Positions 37,680-62,027 of a DNA stretch of 64,000 nt are shown one piece after another. The position numbers and the translations under genes were made by a program. The DNA is from Plumapathes pennacea. Lineage: Eukaryota; Cnidaria; Anthozoa; Antipatharia; Myriopathidae. The notes under the pieces were generated by a model. The model saw only the letters and a list, made by a program, of their open reading frames with translations, was not told the origin of the DNA and did no database searches. The stretch covers positions 7,223,501 through 7,287,500 of the forward strand of contig OZ038473.1 of NCBI GenBank assembly GCA_964036295.1. The letters run 5' to 3'. The stretch's first letter is position 1, and every line of letters starts with the position of its first letter.

Positions 37680-38702
37680 GTGATGCCCAAATGTGGGATT
37701 CTGCCAAAATGTGTCATGAAGTTATATTGGAGACCGTGTCTTCATTGTGTTATTTTTTTTCTGGGTTACGAACAGCACACAGTGATTGGTTGGTATTGCC
37801 ACGTGATATGTGATGACGTGGGTGACTTCGCGAATAACTTGAGATGTAGTCGATTGAATTGTACGTTAAATGCTTGTGTATAAAGTTATCTGTATGCCAT
37901 CCAAACTCAACACCGTTTGGTTCTGTGGAACATGCACGGATAAATTCGATTTTAGGGAACGATTTTGGCTTGCGTTCTTAAGTTCACCATCATAGCCGTA
38001 AACAAATGTTTGATGGATTCGATTATATTTAATGGCTACCGCTACAGGATTGCAAATAACTCTTGCCGCCGCTAATTATTTATCCTCTACGAACTTTCTG
38101 TGGCGACACGAAATACTTCTGGGAAGATACCAGGCCGAAAACGGAACACCATGACGAACTTTAGCTGTAAACAATGATGATTTATGCTCTAATGACATCT
38201 GTTGCCTCGTACGTACTGTAGCTGTTTTGTAAAGTTTTTCCGCCGAAAGTATATCCGTTTTTGTGACAAAAATATTCATTCTTCCGGCTTAAGACTCGAC
38301 CAATGCGTCTGTGAATATATTACATGTATTATGCTGCACGCGAGCGTGACAGTTGTCAAAATGCTTGATCGGCTTATCGTACAGTGCATGTTGAAACATT
38401 TCTTCCATTCGATCAAGTAGCCTTTGTTTTGCAGTGGTAATTGTATACTAGAAATGAAAACTAGACTGGCGTTGTCAGTGAGCTCACGGCCTGAGTTGGG
38501 TCGAGACCAGAATAAACTAAATGGAAAGTAGAGACAAGAGCGGAACTGAATGTAACACTAGACTTGTTGCTTGTGGCTAACATAAGCTTTAAAATGGAGC
38601 GTGTTTTCTTTTCTGGGTTACGAATCAGCACACGGTGATTGGTTCGCATTATCACGTGATTTGCGATGACGTTATGCAATATTGACTTTCCTCGCGAGCG
38701 AC
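37680..38702 (+). repeat. Long repeat family R, left part of a copy split by a LINE
   Basis: Shares with 60,360-60,890 (direct) and 46,930-47,530 (inverted) the blocks CAGCACAC(A/G)GTGATTGGTT, CACGTGATNTGNGATGACGT, CCATCCAAACTCAACACC, GAACGATTTTGGCTTGCGTT, TCTGTGGCGACACGAAATAC and ATGACATCTGTTGCCTC. The module CTAGACTGGCGTTGTCAGTG is at 38,461. The copy breaks at the poly-T of the LINE and resumes at about 44,269 with TTGAGATGTCGGCGATTG. Short open frames in it are not conserved as proteins. Confidence 0.8.
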
Positions 38703-44268: not shown

Positions 44269-46007
44269 TGCTTGAGATGTCGGCGATTGAAGCAAGAGAC
44301 TGAAATTGCATTGTGTTAAAGTTATCCTGTACCCCATCCGAACTGAACATCGGTTGGCTTTCTGGATGCACAGAAGCCATACTTTAAGAACGATTTTGGC
44401 TTGCATTGTTTTTAAGCATCGGAAGATTTTAAAATTGCCGTACACAAATGCTTGATATGTTACCAGCGGAACCCCCGTAAAGTACGAAGGGTTGTGTTTT
44501 TGCAAATGCTCGATTATAGATACAGCTTCAACCAATGTATCTGTGTTTTGAGCAATATTTGTGTGAAAGAACATCGAATAAGTAGAAGACGTGTCAAAAC
44601 TTGATAAAACTTGAACTTTTCCCTGCGGGTAGAGTGTCTCCCTTTGTCGGAAGCTCGGGGGCTTTGTGTAACGCACGGCATATACGAACAGTCGGCGTTT
44701 AACTTCGCTTTGTGTGCAGTAAAGGTTCTTTGTTTATTGCCTGAGGATACTGAATTACTAATAGGTTTGAGGCAAATATCACGCGAGATTAAGATACAAG
44801 ATCTGTCAATGAAATGTCACGAGCATTATATCACAGAACGGGGAATCCCGAATCATCAGCTACTTAGCTTTCACTCACGCCACTTTAACAAAAGCAGGGA
44901 AGACCGGCAGGCGATTACATCGAGAATATTTGTCACTGAATACCTCGAAGTCGTCAAAAGCTCAATGTTGATATCCGACTATCCGAGCCTAATGTTCACT
45001 CCACAAGCGTGATGCACGCCTTTGTTGTCACGGTATTCAAACGTCTGCTGCTTTCGATAGAGATTAATTTCTTATCAACCCAGAATTTTGCATTAAAGCT
45101 TAATGCATAACAGTCTTGAACATATTAGTGTATCAGACTTGCACATGTAGGATGCGTAACTTCTGAGATGGCTTTTTCATACGAAGTAACTTCACCACTG
45201 GGCAGATAAAATAGGAAGTATCATGTTTTAATGTGCTGCAGAGGTAAGTCTAAAAAGCTGTCAGTTACAGCTACTTGAACATGATGCACACGCTGGGAAG
45301 ATTAGCAAAGACGAGATAAGACAAAAGCTGTTATTACAGCTACTTGTACATGATACATTTGAAATGTTCCAACATCTGCTGCAGAGATAGGCATAAACAA
45401 GCAATATTAAAGAGAATGGCACTGAGAAAAGCTTTTTCTTGTTGCTGTTAGGGTCTTCGTTTTCACACATTTCCTAAATACTCTCTTTATTCCCTTGGTT
45501 GATTCTGAGCAAGCTTCGCTTGAGACTTACATCGTTCAGGGTTCGTTCGTAACACGACACTCTCCTCGCTCTCTGAGCACATGTCTAATATGCTAATTAC
45601 AAGCTGTCAATCTTAACGGAAGTTGATTTCCGACACCTCCACAAAACATGTCAGCTTGAAAATTCACTCAGCAAGGTTGCCAGGTTATATAGCAAGCGTC
45701 ACACCAGTACTGTTACGTGCATCGGAAAGCAGCTTCAAAATGCTCCCGGCAAAAACGATCACTCAAGGCAAAAGCAAATCACTCATTGAAAATATTATTC
45801 CGTATGAAACATACCCGGCATGAGTCAGGAGCTATGGACGTTTGAATATCTGGTGACAACAAAGCCGTGTGACACGCTCGTGGCTGAACAAAAACGGTGT
45901 TATAAAGTTTTCCTTCACGGAACATTTTAAAATTGGCACTGCGAAAGATGAAGTAACATAACATCAAGCTGAGATGCAGATCAGCTTCATTTCATGTTTC
46001 GAGTTAT
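44269..46007 (+). repeat. Family R copy, right part after the LINE
   Basis: Continues 37,680-38,702. Inverted homology to 62,028-63,000 spans 44,380-45,105, including a frame that reads similarly in both (MNFSL...ESLKV-like), but this looks like repeat conservation. Inverted homology to 51,660-51,867 covers about 45,095-45,290, and to 49,370-49,720 about 45,640-46,007. The sequence GCATTAAAGCTTAATGCATA at 45,092-45,111 corresponds to the place where the 10-kb element is inserted in the other copy. Confidence 0.82.
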
Positions 46008-46426: not shown

Positions 46427-48430
46427 AGTTGGTGAACAACCTTGGTGCGGCCGCTTACAAACTCTTTATCAAATTTCCAAAAGACAAATTGCCGCTGCTT
46501 TGCCAAAATGAAGCATAGACAATCCAAAATTGGCATCTTGACTAATTCAGGCATGTTCTGTTCAGTTCTGGAGTCAAAAAGGTACAATATGTTATTTTTG
46601 GAGGATCTTCGGTCACGTGACCCGTGAAAAACGAAGAATATTCCTACGGGGCCTTTGATAATTGTTTTCTCTCAATTATTATAGAACACTTTTTCGTGAA
46701 TATCTGTTTGACCGAAATTAGAAGAAAAGAGGGCAAAAAAAATAAAGGGATCTCTTGGATCCGCCATGTGCAAAAACTGACTCAGCTATAATATCTTTGC
46801 ATATGAAGTCTCGACAAAAGTTCCTCTCCCGGGACCCCGCGTGTCTCTATTCATTGTACTAATGACGCCACAAGCGCACTGGCCACGGGCCTGTCTTGTT
46901 TACAATATTATTGCGCTTTTGTTCACAGCGTGTTCAGTCCATTTGTGATTACAAACTCAATCTTCAGAACTATTTCGGTGTATTTTTCATTTCTAGTATA
47001 CAATTACCACTGCGCAACAAAGGCTACTTGATCGAACGAAAGAAACATTTCAACAGGAAATGTGCGATAAGCAGAAGCATTTTATGAGGCAACAGATGTC
47101 ATGTACAGTGTAAAGCATAAAGCGTCATTGTTTTACGGCTAAAGCTTGTCATTGCTTTGGTTTTCGTTTTCGGCCTGGTATCTTCCCAGAAGTATTTTGT
47201 GTCATCACAGAAAGTTTCGTCGGGACTAAATAATTAGGGGCGACAGAGAAATTTGCAATCCCGTAGAGGTATCCATCAAAAATTTGTTTACGGCTATTCT
47301 CAAAGCTTCCACGGTGAACTAACGCAAGCCAAAATCGTTTCCTAAAATCCAGTTTATCTGTGCATGTTCCACAGAGCCAAACGGTGTTTGAGTTTTTAAT
47401 GGGATGCAGCTAACTTTTACGCACAAGTAACAAGCAATTCGGCTGGCCACATCTCGAGTTGTTTCGCGAAGTCAATTACATCATCGCATATCACGTGGTA
47501 ATATGAACCAATTACTGTGCGCTGATTCTTGACCCAGAAAAAGAAACAAAAAAACAACAAACTCCGTTTTTAAGCTCGCCACAGGCGCGAGCAAATACAC
47601 CAAAATAGTCCTGAACATTGAGTTTGTTAGTCACAAATGGACTGAACACGCTGTGAACAAAACCGTAATAATATTGTAAACAAGTCTCCTGTTGCATTCC
47701 TTGCTTCCAACTTGTATTTGTTACAGAGCGCAAATACTCGAAAGCCTCATAGAAGAAACGCATTCAGTAAAAAAAAAGTATTGAAGCGAAGGCTACAATC
47801 AGTGACGAATTTCTTGGGACGCTCACACAGTTTCAGTAATCTCTACTGTCAGTTGAAAGACAACCCCTCTCCCCCCCGTTCAATGTTGAAGTGGCCTGAA
47901 CTTGTTTTCCCAAACACACGCAACATTGTACAGAGGGGAGGGGGGAGAAAAGTGGTTTTGCGCCTTTCAGTACGCTTAGTCAATGACTAGCCTGAGATAC
48001 ATCAATTTTTGAAAGTATCCCAAGAACTTTTGTCACTAATTGTAGCTTATTGTGGCCTCTGATTACAAATAATTCAAAGTCAAATTGTCAAAATCGACTG
48101 TGCATGAAAAGATAAGTCACACATTAGTCTTTTCTTGCTGGCTAACTTTTTCACTCCAAAGCTCAAAATGCAGAGTTGCTCAACCTTTAAGAAGCAAGTG
48201 TATGAGTGTTGTAATGACAATTTATACCAATAGGTTTCATTTGAGCAAGGTTTGAAAAGTCAAGTTATCTATACTGTGTGATATTTTTCTGGTGAGAAAC
48301 TGAAAGTCTCTTGGGAGTTTCACTCTTGTCCCTATTTTCCAATTTAGTTTCTTCTCAATTTAGTTTCTTCAATTTAGTCTCGACCCCACCCAACGAGCTC
48401 ACTGGCAATACCAGTCTTGTTAATATTAAT
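46427..48430. repeat. Family R, rearranged copy
   Basis: 46,427-46,910 is the inverse of 48,590-49,360. 46,930-47,530 is the inverse of 60,370-60,990. 47,560-48,430 runs in the same direction as 60,893-61,440. Two family-R segments therefore meet head to head at about 47,560 (GCTCGCCACAGGCGCGAGCA). Non-coding. Confidence 0.75.
47863..47946. repeat. 84-bp C/G-rich foldback, copy 1
   Basis: CCCCTCTCCCCCCCGTTCAA then TGTTG at the left pairs with CAACATTG...GGGGAGGGGGG at the right. A second copy is at 54,565-54,647. Confidence 0.7.
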
Positions 48431-51863: not shown

Positions 51864-51867
51864 TTAA

Positions 51868-52374
51868 GAGGCTGTCTCTGTAAAATCCTCCGAGTCATTT
51901 CAGATTCAAAAATAAATTTCGCTCATACTTTGCCTATCGAAGACACTTGATTCCCAAGTAACGAAAAACATAGTTTGTTTGGTAGAATTCGGTTCTATTA
52001 AGAAAATTTGAGCTTTGATGACCTTGACCCTGAAATGCTCTGACGGGCCCTGTGAAAATGCAAGAAAATGGGTAAACTTCTAGACTTGCTGTGTTCTAAA
52101 CGGTGTTTCCGATTAAAAATAAATTCGATACTAGCATAGAATAACCTTCATTCTCTCTGGAAAAAGTAATTTCCTTTTGTATTATGGAAATACCGCGGGA
52201 AAAACGTCGCACAAACACAGCTTCCTTAGCGTGACAGGTCAACTTTTGAAAAAGTATCCAAGTTGAAGTCACGTAATCTCGAAAGTGGCACTTACCTGGA
52301 ACGTTCTTTTAGTATTGATGCAGAGTCAAAAGGATACTTTTCAAGTATCAGTTAAAATAATTGGCGGCACTGGG
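51868..52374 (+). repeat. Left terminal inverted repeat (about 507 bp) of the 10-kb element
   Basis: Collinear, inverted match to 61,516-62,023 with only scattered substitutions and small indels, ending at GGCGGCACT. Confidence 0.92.
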
Positions 52375-54564
52375 ATATCGATGCAGGAGTGAGCCCTCAA
52401 ATCTATAGTTGTGTCACACTCGGTCATTTTGTCACGGAATATGTTAAGTCTAAACGGCCCGAATTTCCAAGTTAGTACGCCTATTTTGCACCTAGAAAAT
52501 CAATTCAAAGTTGCTGGAGTTTTCAATATAGGTTTAAGTGAATAGCCAAGCAGTTAAAGTACCAAACTAAGACACGTTAACAGCGGTTTTGAGCTGCACA
52601 CAATAAAGTCGCATAACCATGGATAATTGGTGCAAGGTCAAGGCAATTTAACATGACGTTAAGAAAAGCACCCGAGTAGATGAAATCGTTACAATGTCCA
52701 CTCGTTGGATATTTTAACGTATTTTCATGCTTATATAATAAACACGCTTGAGCATAAAAGGCGCACTCGTGACGCCGCATAAATTAGAGTGTTGTGAATT
52801 CTGACGAGTTTAACAGGTGCATTGTTTGGCAAAGCGAGCAGATATGGCAAGTGTTAAGCGATGTTCATTTTACGGGAAAGGACAAAAAGAGTGTGGAGAA
52901 TCAAGAGGAATATCGGATTTTGCTTATTTAGTTCAGTGTACGGCGGATGTTTCCAATCATTTATTGACGTGTCATTTGTCGCGTGAAGCGGCGAACAAGT
53001 ACGAGCTCATTTTGGCGAGAGTGGGCCATTTTGATCTACCTCAAGAAGTCGTCGAAAACTTGGTTGTTTGTCCTGTACACCGCCATATATTCAGAAAGTA
53101 TTGGAGACCTCCGAGGACGTGTCAGTATCCAAGTCACACAGGACGAAAAACAACAATCAGCTGCAAGAACCGTAAATTTCCAAATGGCAAAGGATATGCA
53201 GAGAATGTTTAGCAAAACCGTTTTAGTGGGATCACGTAAGTAATGCCCTTTTGATTTGCTTTGTATTCGCTTTCTTTGAGAATTACTATACAGGCTGAAC
53301 AGCTGTACAGCAGTACCTCCGCGGGAAAAAGATAGCAATGTGACATGCGTCATTGAGATGCGTCCTTGTGCAGTTTAGGCCTGGTTGAAACGGCAAGCAT
53401 ATTTATGTGCCGAACCTGACGTACCGAATACTGTACACAAGAATTTAAGAGGATCAATTTAATTCGACAGAAGCAATCAATTTGAATCAAGTTGGGCGAA
53501 TGAAGTGTGAAACACATCAACCTACAAATACCCGTGAAAATAGAATATGTAATGTTTGTTTTATTCTTTTATTGGATCTTCGGCCGTATAAAATTATTTT
53601 GACTCATTGGCACATGAGAAGTTGCCGATTGTTCAACTGCGAACTAGGGCAGCACTCAATACACTTTCAAAAGAAAGTTCAGCCCTGAGAGTTTGCCAAA
53701 CTAGTAAAGGCATTTCTGGAATTGTGTATGTCAAATCTAATGTGGTTGAACAGAAACAGTCTTGTCATTGAAAGAAAGTTGTCACGGGGACCCAAGTCAC
53801 CCTTTACACAACCTGTCCCTGTTCCCAGCCCCTCCACCCCCACCCCCACCCCCAAACTGGCCACCGAGGCAAGCTGTACGAATAGTTGGCGCGGTTAGGG
53901 TGAGTCAGGTCGATGGGCAACTTTTATTCGTGACGGGCCTCACATATGTGCTCCGGCTCACCCTTCTGACAAACATCCGCATGCACAAAGCATTCAATTA
54001 TTTTCTTCTAGATAGCTTCTTGCGCCTGTAAAGATCTGGTTTCACCAAATAGAATGTTTGATATTCACAGCAATATGCACACAATGTCGGAAACTGCACA
54101 AACACCGAATAGAGACGGACGCAGCTTGGGTTAGAGATGTGGTCAGTCAAAGTGACGATACGACTGACAGCATACCGAGGTATGTGACTCCATTAGGCCC
54201 TGTTTGTATGGAGGAAAGCTATCGCGGTCACCCAAGTCACCACCCTACCCAGGCCAACTTTTCTAAATACTTACATGGAAAAAAAGTAGCCAAGGTTAAA
54301 CGGGCCAAAACTTGCTTTCTCTCGGCTTGGAAACTCGGAAGAATTTGATAACTCAATTTATGAAGCCTACACGGATTGCGGATCAAAGGAAGATTGTCCT
54401 ATCACTGAATTTTATACTTGTATGTCAGATCTGCCGCAATTCGCTTTTGGACCGGGGCGAAACTACAATGAGTTGCAAAATTGTTGAGACGTTCTTTTAA
54501 AAATGATAAATTTTGCGTTTGTTCCCTTGGCTTTAAGTAAAATTGCGCTCAATCTGATCATTTT

Positions 54565-54647
54565 CCCCTCCCCCTTTTCAATGTTGATCCTGTAATACTG
54601 TGTAACAGATTTGGGCGCTCAAACAACATTGCAATAGGGGGGAGGGG
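54565..54647. repeat. 83-bp C/G-rich foldback, copy 2
   Basis: CCCCTCCCCCTTTTCAATGT then TG pairs with CAACATTG...GGGGGGAGGGG. Sister of 47,863-47,946. Confidence 0.7.
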
Positions 54648-54914
54648 AGAAGAGAAGCAAACAAGTCCAAAATCGAAAAACAGGGCGAAATTGATTTAAA
54701 GTGTCTCGACTATTTTTGCAACCCGTTGTAGGATAAGCAAGGCCCTTACTCCACCCACCCACCCGACCACCACCACTCCAGGGTGACATTTTTATTGAAC
54801 CTGATTCCCACACTGGCCCGGCGTACACGTATTCCATTTATCTCTCTTTCGCCTTTTGGCTCTATTTTCTTGTTAATTCATTCCCACGCCCTGCGTGGGT
54901 ACTAATCTGAACAC

Positions 54915-55673
54915 CATGTCGTTTTGAAATGTCTGTATTTCACGGACCGACCTCCCCGCGCAGCGGGGTTTGCTGGGTAAAAAACATCGGAACAGAATTA
55001 CGTCCCCGCACCGCGGGGTTTGCTGGGTAAAACATCGGAACAGAATCTCCAACCTCGTTCCCAGGCTCTTTCCTCCCCTGACCTCAACCCCGAATCTCAA
55101 GTTGAAATGTCTGTATTTCACGGACCGACTTTTGATCACGTGGTGTTCTGGTAGTCCGTTGCGAAGCAACGGACAGGACAGGAGATTGAATGAGTTTTTG
55201 CACTCTTGCCGAATTACGGTGAATATGAATCAAGCAAAGAATCAAACGGAACACTCTCACGAGGAGAAACAAGTTCGTCTTCAAAAACGAAGAGAGCAAG
55301 ACAGACTAAGACGAATTCGTGAGACAAGCCAACAGCGGAGTATTCGTCTCGAACGCAGACGGCAAACAGCCGCCCGACGAAAACAACAGCAGTCGAGACA
55401 GGACAATATTGTCGCTGTCAAAGAAGAGAAGCAACGGCGTGACCGAGAGCGTTACAAGCAGAAACGAACTCAGGAGACAACCCAGGAAAGAGAACGGCGC
55501 ATTACAGCCACCCGGGAGCATAATATGCAGAAGCGAGCCCAAGGAACAGCTCAGGAAAGAGAACAGCGCATGAAAGCCGATCAAGAACGAGCTGCTTCCC
55601 GACGCCACAATGAAACGTCTGGAGAAACAGCCCGTTTTTGACTCAAATGAGGCCAACAATCGACGCCGTGAGC
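54915..55673 (+). repeat. R/E/Q-rich repeat unit, copy 2 (coding part open)
   Basis: Homologous to 24,750-25,505. In this copy the coding part is open from about 55,226 to 55,641 (about 138 residues from MNQAKNQTEHSHEEKQ). It is almost entirely Arg, Glu, Gln, Lys and Thr with repeated QE(R/T)-type heptads, predicted long helix. It ends in RRHNETSGETARF and a stop. It lacks any catalytic domain. The similarity to copy 1 ends at GTGAGCAA, exactly where copy 1 runs into piggyBac sequence. Confidence 0.65.
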
Positions 55674-56139
55674 AACCAAACTGATGCTCTTCTCTTGTCT
55701 CATAGCATACAGTGCTTTATAATTTGTGAACCTGACTCTCGTTTGTCTAATATTCTGTAAAATTATTGAATATTTATAGTGCACTTTTTCATTTTCTCTC
55801 ACAGCAGAGTATTGGGTTAGGGCTATATTTCTCTGGCAATTGGGATTTTCTGTATTAAATACATTTACATTTGTATTAAATACAAATTTTGTACATGTAC
55901 AAGGCAACACTTGAGAACTTTTAAGAAGTATAATGTAACCTACAGGTACTTGAGAAGTATTTAATATACAGTATTTTACCAATAATGTAGTGCAAAGACT
56001 GACTGTATACTTTCTTATGAGACAAAATAAATTACTGTGAAATGGACCTGGCACAATGAATAATATTGTGAGAACTTCCTTCTTTCAAGACCACCCTACA
56101 TATTATATAATAAGATTACTGTACTCTTCAAACAGCAAT

Positions 56140-56575
56140 GGGACCCCAGGCGGGGGGGGGGGGGGAGTACTCTGCCATATAGGTATCTGCTGCCCCAAAG
56201 GGTATCATTTTCAAACATTTTTAGTCTGAAGTAGGGTATAGATTTTGCCTTTTTGGTCTGAAATAGGGTAACGATTTTGTGTTTTTGGCCTGGGATAGGG
56301 TATGATTTTAATAGAAATGTGTCGCAGCGGACAATGCATGGCAAATGGAAGAAAATACAGGGCGGAAATTGTTGCAAAAGAAATAAATCTCTAAACTAGG
56401 TCTGAAATAGGGTATACATTTTGGAGTCAGGTCTGAAATAGGGTATAGTAAATCAGATATTTTGGTTTGAAATAAGGTAAGGGGTTTTCAGGTTCAGGCG
56501 GCACACCCCCACCCAAAATTATGATGAGTACCCTCCAGAATGGGACACATGTCAATATCATGTAAATGCTAATAT
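56140..56575 (+). repeat. GGGTA-type miniature element, copy 2
   Basis: Starts with a run of about 14 G then AGTACTCTGCCATATAGG. Repeated TCTGAAATAGGGTA units; collinear with 30,270-30,645. Confidence 0.78.
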
Positions 56576-56611
56576 AGTGTCATCCGCCTTTAATTACATT
56601 ATATAATACTC

Positions 56612-56715
56612 AGATGTGTGGTGAAAGCATAGAGTACATTAGAGCTCTAGCAATGTCATACAAAATCGATTACTTGGGCGTGGGTCCTCTGCGAATATCG
56701 TATTTCTAGTATTAT
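56612..56715 (+). repeat. Single 92-bp unit, unoccupied counterpart of 30,655-31,640
   Basis: AGATGTGTGGTGAAAGCATA...CTAGTATTA. In this copy the sequence is not interrupted by the LINE tail and not duplicated. Confidence 0.75.
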
Positions 56716-59700
56716 TGTTTTTGCGTGATTTTAGCTATAGCGATAAACAAACTCAACATTCCTCTCTAGAGCTGCCAAACTTGAAGCAAGGGCCCTTCTG
56801 ACAAGTCTAACCCCAGCCCGTGAGCATGTGCGACACAGTGACCATGACTGGACCCCTACTGGACAAGTGGCTCAGTTGGTCTGTGGAAGTTCGGAAGACG
56901 ACTCCGAACAAATTCCGACTTTTCAGTCTAACGCCGCTCTTGATATATTCAATCAAGCTATGGAAAACATTTCCAAATGTGGAACTATGGGACGTATAAC
57001 CCCCTTGAACTTCCAGTTAAACACAACATGGGTAAAGGCAAACGAGTTTGAACGCACTGCATGCATAACGAAAGCCACTGAAGCATGCAAAACGGTCTGT
57101 AGTGCTATAGCTCCTGCTGATGGAAATAGGCTTTTCCAAGAGGTCCAGACTTGAAGAGGTCTGCTCAGAGCTCACTGATCTGGTAGCCGCATACGACAAG
57201 GCCGCCATGAGAAATCTTAAAACACAGCTCTTAAGTATATATGCGTACAAGTATCCAGCCCATCAACTCATGAAGATTCACGCAGCTTCAGGAATCCCAC
57301 TGACGGAATGGGATATTAGAAAGGCTAGAACTCACGCCAATGCCCATGGTCCTGGCACACCAGTTCAAAAGATCCCTCAGCACAGGATAAAGATTCACGT
57401 TGTAAAAGCTACCCACTTCCTAGAGTTCTGTGACAGGCCTTACTTTCACCAGGACGTAGCCTTTGGTACACGAACCTTAAAGCTTGATTGTGGAGAGAAC
57501 ATTGAAATGCCTAACGTCATCCGGACAGTGACGCGTTCTACAATGGTTGCACAGTACCAAAAACATTGTGAAGAGGAACAGTTCAAACCATTAAGTTGAG
57601 CAACACTCTATAGGATTCTCGAAGTGCGCGAAGCTTCGCAACGAAAGGCTTTACAAGAACTAGATAACATCGCAACAGATGAGGCGTTGGCCTTCGACTC
57701 TATTGTCAGAATAGTGGAAGAATTGGAAAGGGCAGGGGCTAAACCAGATTGGTCTTCCCAAGTACAAAGCACTCTTTTAGAAAGTAAACGCTATCTGAAA
57801 ACGGATTACAGGGCTCATTGCAAAGAAGAAGGAAGTCCATGTGCCGATCACTGCCGCCAATTTGCTCTAAGTGATGCAAATGATATTGCATTTCAAGAAA
57901 CGTGTGATCATGATCACAACATCATTTGTAATCAATGTGAGGCTCTGAGAAACGCACTTGCTGAGGTGGAGACATTGCCAAGAACTCACGATACACAGAT
58001 TACGTTCTACAACGCTGAACAACAAGGAGACATTTTGTACGATTTCATGCGTTTGAAAGAAAACATCTCTAAGTGGAAAGCCCATGTTCTACGCTCAGAA
58101 AATCAGGAAGAGTCAAAGCAGTTTGCTTTAAAGAACTTAGATCAATCTTCAGCCCTAATAACAATGGACTGGGCGATGAATTTCCAGTGCCAAAGATATC
58201 GTGAGAAGCAAGCCGAATGGTTTGGCAAGAGAGGCCTTAGTTGGCACGTCAGCAGTCTCATCACAAATCTGAAGGAATCAGGGAAATTTGAAGTTGCCAC
58301 TTTCGTCCATCTTTTCGACTCCTGTTCGCAAGATTGGTTTGCAGTCCATTGTGTCTTGGAAAACCTCTTGAGGCATCTGAAGAGTGAGCGCCCGTCCTTG
58401 AAAGCTGTGTTTTTGAGGTCTGACGAGGCAGGATGTTACCACAATAATTTTCTGGTGGCATCCATCCTGGAACTGAGCAAGTACACTGGCATAACAGTAC
58501 AGCAATACGACTTTTCGGAACCGCAGCACGGCAAAGACATCTGTGATTGTATCATATGCCCAATGAAGTCGGTGGTTCGCAGATACTGTGACGAAGGCCA
58601 CGACATTTTGTCTGCTGAAGACATGAGAGAAGCGCTTATGGAGAGACCAGTTAAGGGCGTGACTGCTTCTGTTAACCACATCAACGAGCAGCAAAAGACC
58701 TTTCTTCTGAAGAAGATAAGCCACTTCAGTGCTTACCACAGTTTTAGATATGAGCCAGAGGGAGTGAGAGTATGGAAGGCGTACGCTGTTGGGCCAGGGA
58801 AACTCATTCATTATAGCAACATAGTTGTAAAACCACAAGAAACAACGTCGCTCGTTGACGCCGACAAGACCTTCTTTGGCCGTTCTGTTAGACAACCATT
58901 GAAGATGAAGGATTCCCAACCCAAGTCACAATGTTTGCTACCCAGTCCTGTGCTCACCGATGGTTTCCCGTGTTCTGAGCCTGGATGCACTGCCACATTT
59001 GAACATTTTGAGGAATTGCAATACCACCTCAATGTGGGAGAGCACAACACCATCATTGTAAGGGAAAGTTACTATGACAAGATTCGAAGAGAATGGGCTG
59101 CACGCATTGCCACAGTGCAACAAAGTGGCGGTGCAACATGCTCAGTACCTGGTGTTTGTCACGAACATCCAGAAGATTATTTCCCACTTTCGATGGGTTG
59201 GGCACTACAAAAGCCTTGGAAGGGAGCATCCCGATATTCCCAGAAAGTGAGGGACTATCTGCAAGCCAAGTTTGACGCCGGAGAGGATACAGGAAGAAAA
59301 CAAGATCCAGGGAAAGTTTCCGCTGACATGAGGGCTGCGAGATCGGAGAACAACGAGAGGCTTTTTGACCGAGCCGAGTGGTTAACACGAACGCAGATAC
59401 AGTCGTACATTTTGAGACTCGCCGCTGTTAAACGGAAAGAGCCCTGCACCCGAGGACGAGATGAAGCAGTTGCAGCCGATGATCTTGACGAATGGATTAA
59501 AGAAATTGAAAGCGTGGATGACGAAAAAAGGCGACAGTCAACATTGAGAGACATTCACAACGAAATAGGGATAACACACCCTATCTATTACGATGCTTTC
59601 AATCTCTGTGACTGCACTAAAAAAGAGAGGCTTAACTCATTTAATGTTGCCATGCTGAAGGCCATCTGCACTCACTTCGAAATACAGTTCAAGTCCCGCG

Positions 59701-59768
59701 ATAAGAAAAAGGAACTTGTGCAAAAGGTTAAAAATATGATCTTGGAGTGCCAATGCAACAAGAGTTAA

Positions 59769-60299
59769 GAAATAATTATGGGACTGATTGATAGTTACTA
59801 TCAGTAATTGACGCGGCCATGGAAATCTTCATAGACATCAATGACAATCAAACGCTGATAGTTTATGAAAGATGTAAATTGCATTACTTGCTGAAAAAGA
59901 CAACACAAGACCACTTGTGTCAAAAAGATGTGAGATCATCTTCCAACATAATTATTCGAGAGTCGCCATATTTCGTACTACGTCTTTCAAGCTTTGTAGT
60001 TGGTAACTCTGGTTTCGGTCTTCTTTTTTGAAAGTGCTTTCACAAGAAAGGTTCAGTTTTCTTCCCTTTGATGTAATATCATTTGACTCTTGAATGTCAA
60101 TTTAGAAGGCATCGATCGTTCGGGGATCGTTAACGGGTGAGTGCATTTAATGTAAATTTAGTTATAAAAGTGAGCCGATAGGCCACTTCATTGTGCTGGT
60201 AAAAAATAAATAACGCTGCTCGCACTGGTGTAATGTTACTTTACTTCCTATACTTCACATATTATTGCTCTTCTGCTTATCTCGAAACACTAGGAACAT
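59769..60299. other. 3' untranslated/internal region of the 10-kb element
   Basis: AT-rich; no further gene recognised. An AATAAA-like AAAATAAATAA is at about 60,202 and could serve as polyadenylation signal. Confidence 0.4.
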
Positions 60300-61440
60300 T
60301 TTTGCTCGCGGGGGCCTGGGGCCCCAGCGAGCTTAAAAATGGGCATTTTTATTTATTTTTTTTCCTTTTTGTGGGTCGAGAATCAGCACACGGCGATTGG
60401 TTCATATTATCACGTGCTGGGCGATGACGTAATTGACTTCGCTAAACAACTCGAGATGTGGCCAGTGAATTGCTCGTTACTTGTGTGTAAAAGTTAACCG
60501 CATCCCATCCAAACTCAACACCATTTGGCTCTGTGGAATAGGCACGGATAAACTGGATTTTCGGGAACGATTTTGGCTCGCGTTCACCGCGGAAGCTTTG
60601 AGAATAGCCGTAAACAAATATTTGATGGTACCGCTGTCGCCGATAAATATTTAGTCCCGATGAAACTTTCTGTGGCGACACGAAATACTTTTGGGAAGAT
60701 AACAGGGCGAAAGCAGAAACCAAAGCTACGGTGAGCTTTAGCCGTAAAACAATGACGCTTTATGCTTTACTCTGTACATGACATCTGTTGCCTCATAAAA
60801 TTCTTCTGCGTATCGTACATTGCCTGTTGAAGTGTTTCTTTCATTCGATCATGTAGCCTTTGTTTCGCAATGGTCATTGAATACCAGAAAATACACCGAA
60901 ATAATTCTGAGGATTGAGTTTTCAGTCACAAATGGACTGAACACACTGTGAACAAAAGCGTAATAATATTGTAAACATCTCTTGTATGACATTCCTCGCT
61001 TTCAATTTTATATTTGTTACAGAGCACGAATACTCGAAAGCCTGATAGAAAAAACGTATTGAGTTAAGAAAAGAAAACACATAAGTAGTGAAGTGAAGGC
61101 TGGATTAATCGTGGCCTCTGATTAGAAATATGAGTCAAGGTCAAACTGTCATAATCGATTGTGCATAAAAAGATATGTCACGCATTCTCAAAATGCAGGG
61201 TCGCTCAACCTTTAAGAAGCAAGTGTATGAGTGTTGTAATAATAATTTTTAGTTTAATCAAGGTGTCAAAAGAGCAAGGTGTCAAAAGCCAAGTTCTCTA
61301 TACTGTGTGATATTTTTATGGTGAGAAATTGGAAGTCTCTCTGGGAGTTCCGCTCTTGTCCCCTACTTTCCATTTTATATTCTGGTCTCGACCCAACTCA
61401 CGCCGCAAGCTCACTGGCAAAAATACCGTCTTCCAGGGAT
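60300..61440 (+). repeat. Family R copy nested in the 10-kb element
   Basis: Starts with a GC-rich foldback GCTCGCGGGGGCCTGGGGCC / CCAGCGAGC and ends near CAAGCTCACTGGCAAAAATA. Homologous to 37,745-38,450 (direct), 46,930-47,530 (inverted) and 47,560-48,430 (direct). Confidence 0.78.
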
Positions 61441-61515
61441 GCCATGATTTGCGTGACAGAATTACCTATCGTCACGAAAGCAAATATTCGAGGGATAATT
61501 TTTCCGTAAAACAGC

Positions 61516-62023
61516 AAAGTGCCGCCAATTATTTTAACTGATACTTGAAAAGTATCCTTTTGACTCTGCATCAATACTAAAAGAACGTTCCAGGTAAGTG
61601 CCACTTTCGAGATTACGTGACTTCAACTTGGATACTTTTTCAAAAGTTGACCCGCCACGCTAAGGAAACTGTGTTTGTGCGACGTTTTTTCCGCGGTATT
61701 TCCATAATACAAAAGGAAATCACTTTTTCCAGAGAGAATGAAGGTTATTCTATGCTAGGATCGAATTTGCTTTTAATCGGAAACACCGCTTAGAACACAG
61801 CAAGTCTAGAAGTTTACCCATTTTCTTGCATTTTCACAGGGCCCGTCAGAGCAATTCATGGTCAAGGTCATCAAAGCTCAAATTTTCTTAATAGAACCGA
61901 CTTCCACCAAACAAACTATGTTTTTTTGTTACTTGGGCATCAAGTGTCTTCGATTAAGCAAAGTATGAGCGAAATCTATTTTTGAATCTGAAATGACTCG
62001 GAGGATTTTACAGAGACAGCCTC
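61516..62023 (-). repeat. Right terminal inverted repeat (about 508 bp) of the 10-kb element
   Basis: Inverse of 51,868-52,374; ends CAGAGACAGCCTC directly before TTAA. Confidence 0.92.
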
Positions 62024-62027
62024 TTAA

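Follow-up and report, generated by a model that had tools for sequence, protein, structure and literature searches.

Sola3, which we take to be a third group of TTAA-directed transposons beside piggyBac and Kolobok, was reportedly described by Bao et al. in 2009 and is said to occur in animals, to make a 4-bp TTAA duplication, to have GAG...CTC ends and to encode a transposase with three catalytic aspartates (DDD) that is unlike others. Kolobok elements, as set out in an extract of PMC9587614, combine a TTAA target and 5'-RR...YY-3' ends with a C/DxxH motif between the second aspartate and the last catalytic residue, while an extract of PMC6004289 gives their THAP domain as usual, not universal; the ends of piggyBac are CC[C/T]T in an extract of PMC2872659. 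Here we analyse a TTAA-flanked element at positions 51,864 to 62,027 of a 64,000-nucleotide stretch of the anthozoan Plumapathes pennacea (assembly GCA_964036295.1, contig OZ038473.1, 7,223,501 to 7,287,500), which is C12:7223501-7287500 of the 290-Mb genome searched and is referred to below as the window. We have little doubt that the element is what remains of an autonomous DNA transposon of the cut-and-paste kind, in a copy that has since decayed, or that it moved by the mechanism which this implies. By the features listed above, the transposon probably belongs to Sola3, a group absent from the candidates considered in a preliminary description of the locus.

Arms, gene and copies of the element

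The inverted arms, with TTAA adjoining each, lie where the preliminary description had placed them and have the length of about 507 bp that it gave; their alignment over 507 columns contains 487 identities, 17 mismatches, of which 12 are transitions, and 3 gaps (Table 1). The length of 10.16 kb proposed for the element does not stand, since about 2.9 kb of it consists of nested later insertions. Alignment with a 7.2-kb copy at C12:7116334-7123566, apart from 566 bases of that copy (C12:7118343-7118908), showed that two stretches of the window, 54882-56709 and 60303-61418, are extra; both insertions being later, the window element was originally about 7.2 kb long. The first of these carries TTCCCACGCCC at one end and CTAG at the other and sits between A and T, which we take to mark it as Helitron-like by the usual rules (a TTCCC start, a CTAG end and a position between A and T). 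It contains an Arg/Gln-rich open reading frame (ORF) of 237 amino acids (aa) at 54928-55641 which, as it lies inside the nested insertion, is no part of the transposase.

The tests of copies, ends and linkage cover this genome. A search with the left arm found 26 places, 21 of which form, by their coordinates, nine two-sided elements of 5.5 to 30.3 kb. In two of the nine (C3:10415477 and C10:12017383) the left arm lacks its outermost bases, and four arm matches are weak or partial (C5:16556224, C10:12710752, C1:14832173 and C1:496072). The nine paired copies rule out a chance inverted repeat. A protein-coding stretch 68-100% identical to the 722-aa ORF of the window is present inside all nine arm pairs and, viewed from the side of the gene, all nine listed places of at least 68% identity lie between arms; the 14 gene matches at or above this identity are all within the nine elements, nine having been tested and five placed from coordinates. 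Arms that never flank the gene, or genes that never have the arms, would have told against the association first proposed, and neither was encountered. This complete linkage in both directions also rules out a gene unrelated to the arms, and the orphan gene is the transposase, as the preliminary description had suggested. TTAA stands outside 14 of the 17 full ends of the subfamily.

Three exons, the number originally proposed, were recognised in the gene by the similarity (tblastn) of the window to longer Oculina gene models; judged by eye, exon 2 lies between AG and GT and the main exon follows an AG. The transposase is 1108-1186 aa long in four Oculina models from annotation and in an Exaiptasia model. 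Within the main exon the catalytic core is encoded by an open ORF of 722 aa at 57600-59768. The gene is disrupted, for its frame changes near 57110-57160 and a TGA stands in frame at 57597-57599; a further frame change, judged by eye, apparently lies towards the end of exon 1. The window copy can presumably no longer make the transposase. Stops or splits are also found in other copies of the window's subfamily.

Table 1. Features of the element and its surroundings (window positions)
Feature	Positions	Strand	Basis or remark
Uninterrupted copy of flanking repeat	44793..45291	-	empty site for L065; TTAAGCTTTAA at the window element's place
TTAA adjoining left end	51864..51867		read from sequence
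Left terminal inverted arm	51868..52372	+	starts GAGGCTGTCTCTGTAAAA; sequence, arm alignment, genome copies
Exon 1, Cys/His-rich N-terminal domain	52844..53235	+	tblastn with Oculina P0035, P0040, P0096; end approximate
Exon 2, CxxC...H motif	54071..54179	+	tblastn with P0035 residues 129-167, E 0.002; borders inferred
Nested later insertion, Helitron-like	54882..56709		missing in C12:7116334-7123566 copy; junctions read
Main transposase exon	56770..59768	+	Oculina similarity; reading frames
Predicted integrase-like RNase H core	58107..58934	+	likely catalytic Asp190, Asp275, Asp316 of 722-aa ORF
Nested later insertion	60303..61418		repeat, inverted matches to both element flanks; missing in C12:7116334 copy
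Right terminal inverted arm	61518..62023	-	sequence, arm alignment
TTAA adjoining right end	62024..62027		read from sequence

The transposase and its relatives

Asp190, Asp275 and Asp316 are present in 104 of 104 rows of the protein alignment, in every one of which the second and third catalytic residues are separated by a spacing of 40. This conservation, together with the place of the residues in what is predicted to be an RNase H fold, points to a DDD triad. In the model the transposase would start with a Cys/His domain at its N terminus, followed in order by a helical region, the RNase H core, which resembles that of retroviral integrases, with its DDD residues, a beta-rich stretch and, C-terminal to the core, a C2H2 finger; the C-terminal end is weakly SAP/LEM-like.

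Protein searches at E <= 0.001 returned 422 and 582 relatives, sets whose overlap was not counted and of which the best 120 each were listed. The listed homologues are mostly named 'hypothetical' or 'uncharacterized', with one 'Transposon Tf2-6 poly' (P0208), and relatives occur in several anthozoans and one amphioxus. The relative P0022 is filed as a protein of a gammaproteobacterial metagenome-assembled genome and probably represents animal DNA in the bin. Scans of viral and GTDB collections, which reach only sequences that share a short pattern, gave 59 and 14 pattern matches, respectively, and no relative among them. A sequence search of the PDB found mostly C2H2 fingers plus the end of Ku70 and no transposase.

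In the genome itself a search that scored 62 of 651 first-look candidates yielded 67 matches to the protein. The end motif GAGGCNGTCTCTGTAAAA has 143 exact occurrences (76 + 67), against none for a reversed control, and is preceded by TTAA in 116 of them (59 + 57); a 22-base form of the end, allowing up to 3 mismatches, has 195 matches compared with 11 in the control. Among the first 100 ends listed there are 30 facing neighbour pairs less than 16 kb apart (1.36-12.9 kb), and the short ones, judged from their size, are presumably non-autonomous. Relatives at 46-54% identity have the same ends as the window element wherever ends were found. Among the copies at 47-48% identity, four (L019, L021, L016 and L017, a duplicate of L016) end in CTC followed by TTAA, and the flanks of L019, L021 and L016 differ from one another. 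In a family at 37% identity (L065 and L066) the arms are about 960 bp long and start with GAGTC directly after TTAA. In the relatives L022 and L023 a frame of 1016 aa is open with no internal stops, and the two share 98.7% identity over 5.1 kb; between L065 and L066 the identity is 99.2% over 7.2 kb. This near-identity suggests, from sequence comparison, that relatives moved or were copied recently.

Three arrangements of ends and copies were also observed. At C4:22.04-26.49 Mb there are 17 exact end motifs, which are all on the + strand and for which the list shows no facing partner; a single end may have been amplified there as part of another repeat. Three copies of a 48% relative (C6:16280115, 16297694 and 16315272) have a 17.58-kb spacing and are 100% identical over at least 4.1 kb, which we read as a recent tandem duplication carrying the transposon. 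Two side-by-side elements at C1:30254734-30263088 have one TTAA in common, the arrangement expected of insertion into a neighbour's target site.

Target duplication and the movement of the element

The insertion at C12:7116334-7123566 sits in a repeat of which the closest copy compared, in L025 (90%), reads GGATTAAATG and has one TTAA. Similarly, the repeat that received L065 has a single TTAA at the site in its window copies at 44656-45344 and 62457-62024. These empty copies with a single TTAA show that an ordinary 4-bp duplication fits both insertions, and the possibility raised at the outset, that TTAA is not duplicated at other copies, is thus not borne out. Shared inverted ends over dispersed copies, a TTAA duplication relative to empty sites and a predicted RNase H fold are together what is expected of a cut-and-paste DDE/D element.

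The window copy needs separate consideration. It lies in the same repeat as the L065 insertion, about 40 bp away, at a place where that repeat normally carries a pair of TTAA separated by seven bases. In 75 copies matching a pattern that itself required the left TTAA, the flanking words are separated by seven bases in 73, by eight in 2 and by zero in none, and 63 of the 75 read exactly TTAAGCTTTAA. The window has TTAA, the element and TTAA, with 7 bp missing relative to uninterrupted copies; as all 75 copies hold seven or eight bases between the words, duplication is unproven at the window copy. It could be argued that here, and at this copy only, the pair of TTAA is no fresh duplication and that the 7 bp disappeared during insertion or through recombination of two neighbouring insertions. 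The 75 copies, 63 of them with TTAAGCTTTAA intact, favour this account. However, the same outcome would follow from an ordinary insertion into a site where a short stretch between the TTAA had already been deleted, and duplication was ordinary at two other insertions; we hold a loss in the course of insertion or recombination to be possible but the less likely history. An earlier deletion of this kind would be the simplest account, with TTAATGC or TTAAGCTTTAATGC as the alternatives for the site before insertion.

With regard to the repeats themselves, the joined flanks of the element match uninterrupted at 40 places scored, and repeat copies related to the flanks occur in the window at 37775-38208, 46990-47577 and 60299-60890. 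The repeat that received the C12:7116334 copy is a relative of the one nested at 60303-61418. Such repeats appear to attract this group of transposons.

Several observations weigh against reading the element as a cut-and-paste transposon with a duplicated TTAA target. An end at C10:9345267 is solitary, and 3 of the 17 full ends adjoin AAAA, TTAT or ATAA; TTAT and ATAA come from opposite sides of one element, C2:28632867 (TTAT/TTAT when read in one direction), and AAAA comes from C10:10518431, where the flanks do not agree, with TTAA on the left and TTTT on the right. The motif GAGGCNGTCTCTGTAAAA is without TTAA at 27 of its 143 occurrences. When 51 gene matches, 13 of them from the window's subfamily, were compared with the listed ends, at least 8 of the 20 matches at 45-55% identity lay between two ends and at least 4 beside one, with 8 beside none, and of the 18 below 45% at least 1 lay beside one end and 17 beside none, the counts of neighbouring ends being lower bounds because the list holds 100 of the 195 ends and does not reach C12. 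Among the families below 45% identity the own ends were examined in L065 and L066 only. Three more divergent window copies of the C12:7116334 repeat have no TTAA and no extra bases at the site, and the window copy does not itself prove a duplication. Finally, Foldseek found no match at E <= 0.001 for the model of the 722-aa ORF, and the core alone matched weakly, with NurA best (3.2e-4) and TnsB next (9.5e-4).

The cut-and-paste reading nevertheless accounts for what was observed, namely the arms, the TTAA, the 4-bp duplication at other insertions, the gene between the arms and the many copies. We propose that the transposase would bind the long arms and that its three aspartates would cut at GAG/CTC. 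The ends would then be joined to TTAA at positions staggered by 4 bp, and repair of the gaps would leave a TTAA on each side.

Affiliation among TTAA-directed transposons

We consider the finding sound and the kind of element probably already known. The features given for Sola3 recur here: a 4-bp TTAA duplication at two insertions, GAG...CTC ends and, in the model, a DDD triad present in all 104 rows. The assignment is a probable one that goes by these three features; no definition of Sola3 ends or target was found in the openly licensed literature.

The strongest competitor is a superfamily of TTAA transposons that has yet to be described and is separate from Sola3, Kolobok and piggyBac. In it an integrase-like DDD core would be set in a large protein that also has Cys/His, C2H2 and SAP-like parts, and the arms would measure 0.5 to 0.96 kb. 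This proposal is consistent with the names of the listed homologues noted above and with profile searches of 46 diverse members, in which no transposase family occurred among the 25 listed of 42 matched Pfam families or among 10 NCBIfam families with weak, mixed matches. Pfam, however, need not include every eukaryotic transposase, and TTAA, GAG/CTC ends and DDD jointly match the features given for Sola3. The undescribed family of the preliminary description is thus retained as a tentative alternative, Sola3 being the more likely.

A divergent Kolobok lineage, also suggested there, would explain the TTAA duplication at other insertions and the purine-purine 5' ends (GA...TC, in keeping with 5'-RR...YY-3'). 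The window transposase, in contrast to Kolobok, lacks C/DxxH, which occurs in 3 of 104 rows as chance matches, and this absence, with the spacing of 40 in all rows, leads us to reject such a lineage as very improbable. The finger that was found sits after the core; a THAP domain gave no match at E <= 10 in five window ORFs, which hold the gene in pieces, and is not among the 25 listed of the 42 Pfam families. A relative of piggyBac, with which the element has the TTAA target in common, can be dismissed with near certainty, as the ends are GAG rather than CC[C/T]T and the piggyBac transposase domain (presumably DDE_Tnp_1_7 in Pfam) is matched by none of the five window ORFs, among them the 722-aa ORF, at E <= 10; the ends and protein had been called unlike piggyBac from the start.

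The 422 and 582 unnamed relatives, of which the best 120 each are listed, become readable as transposases with known ends, a known target and a predicted core, and where near-identical copies keep their frames open they might be put to use in transferring genes to TTAA sites. Were the superfamily new, a transposase that resembles neither piggyBac nor Kolobok would have arrived at TTAA specificity. Comparison of the core with solved structures, in which VIA-align re-aligned only the top chains from Foldseek and which covers the families listed there, gave 7-14% identity to the catalytic cores of retroviral integrase, TnsB and Mos1, from which the window protein differs in having Asp as the third catalytic residue and in its other domains. 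A comparison of this transposase with piggyBac and Kolobok would show how dissimilar proteins arrive at one and the same target.

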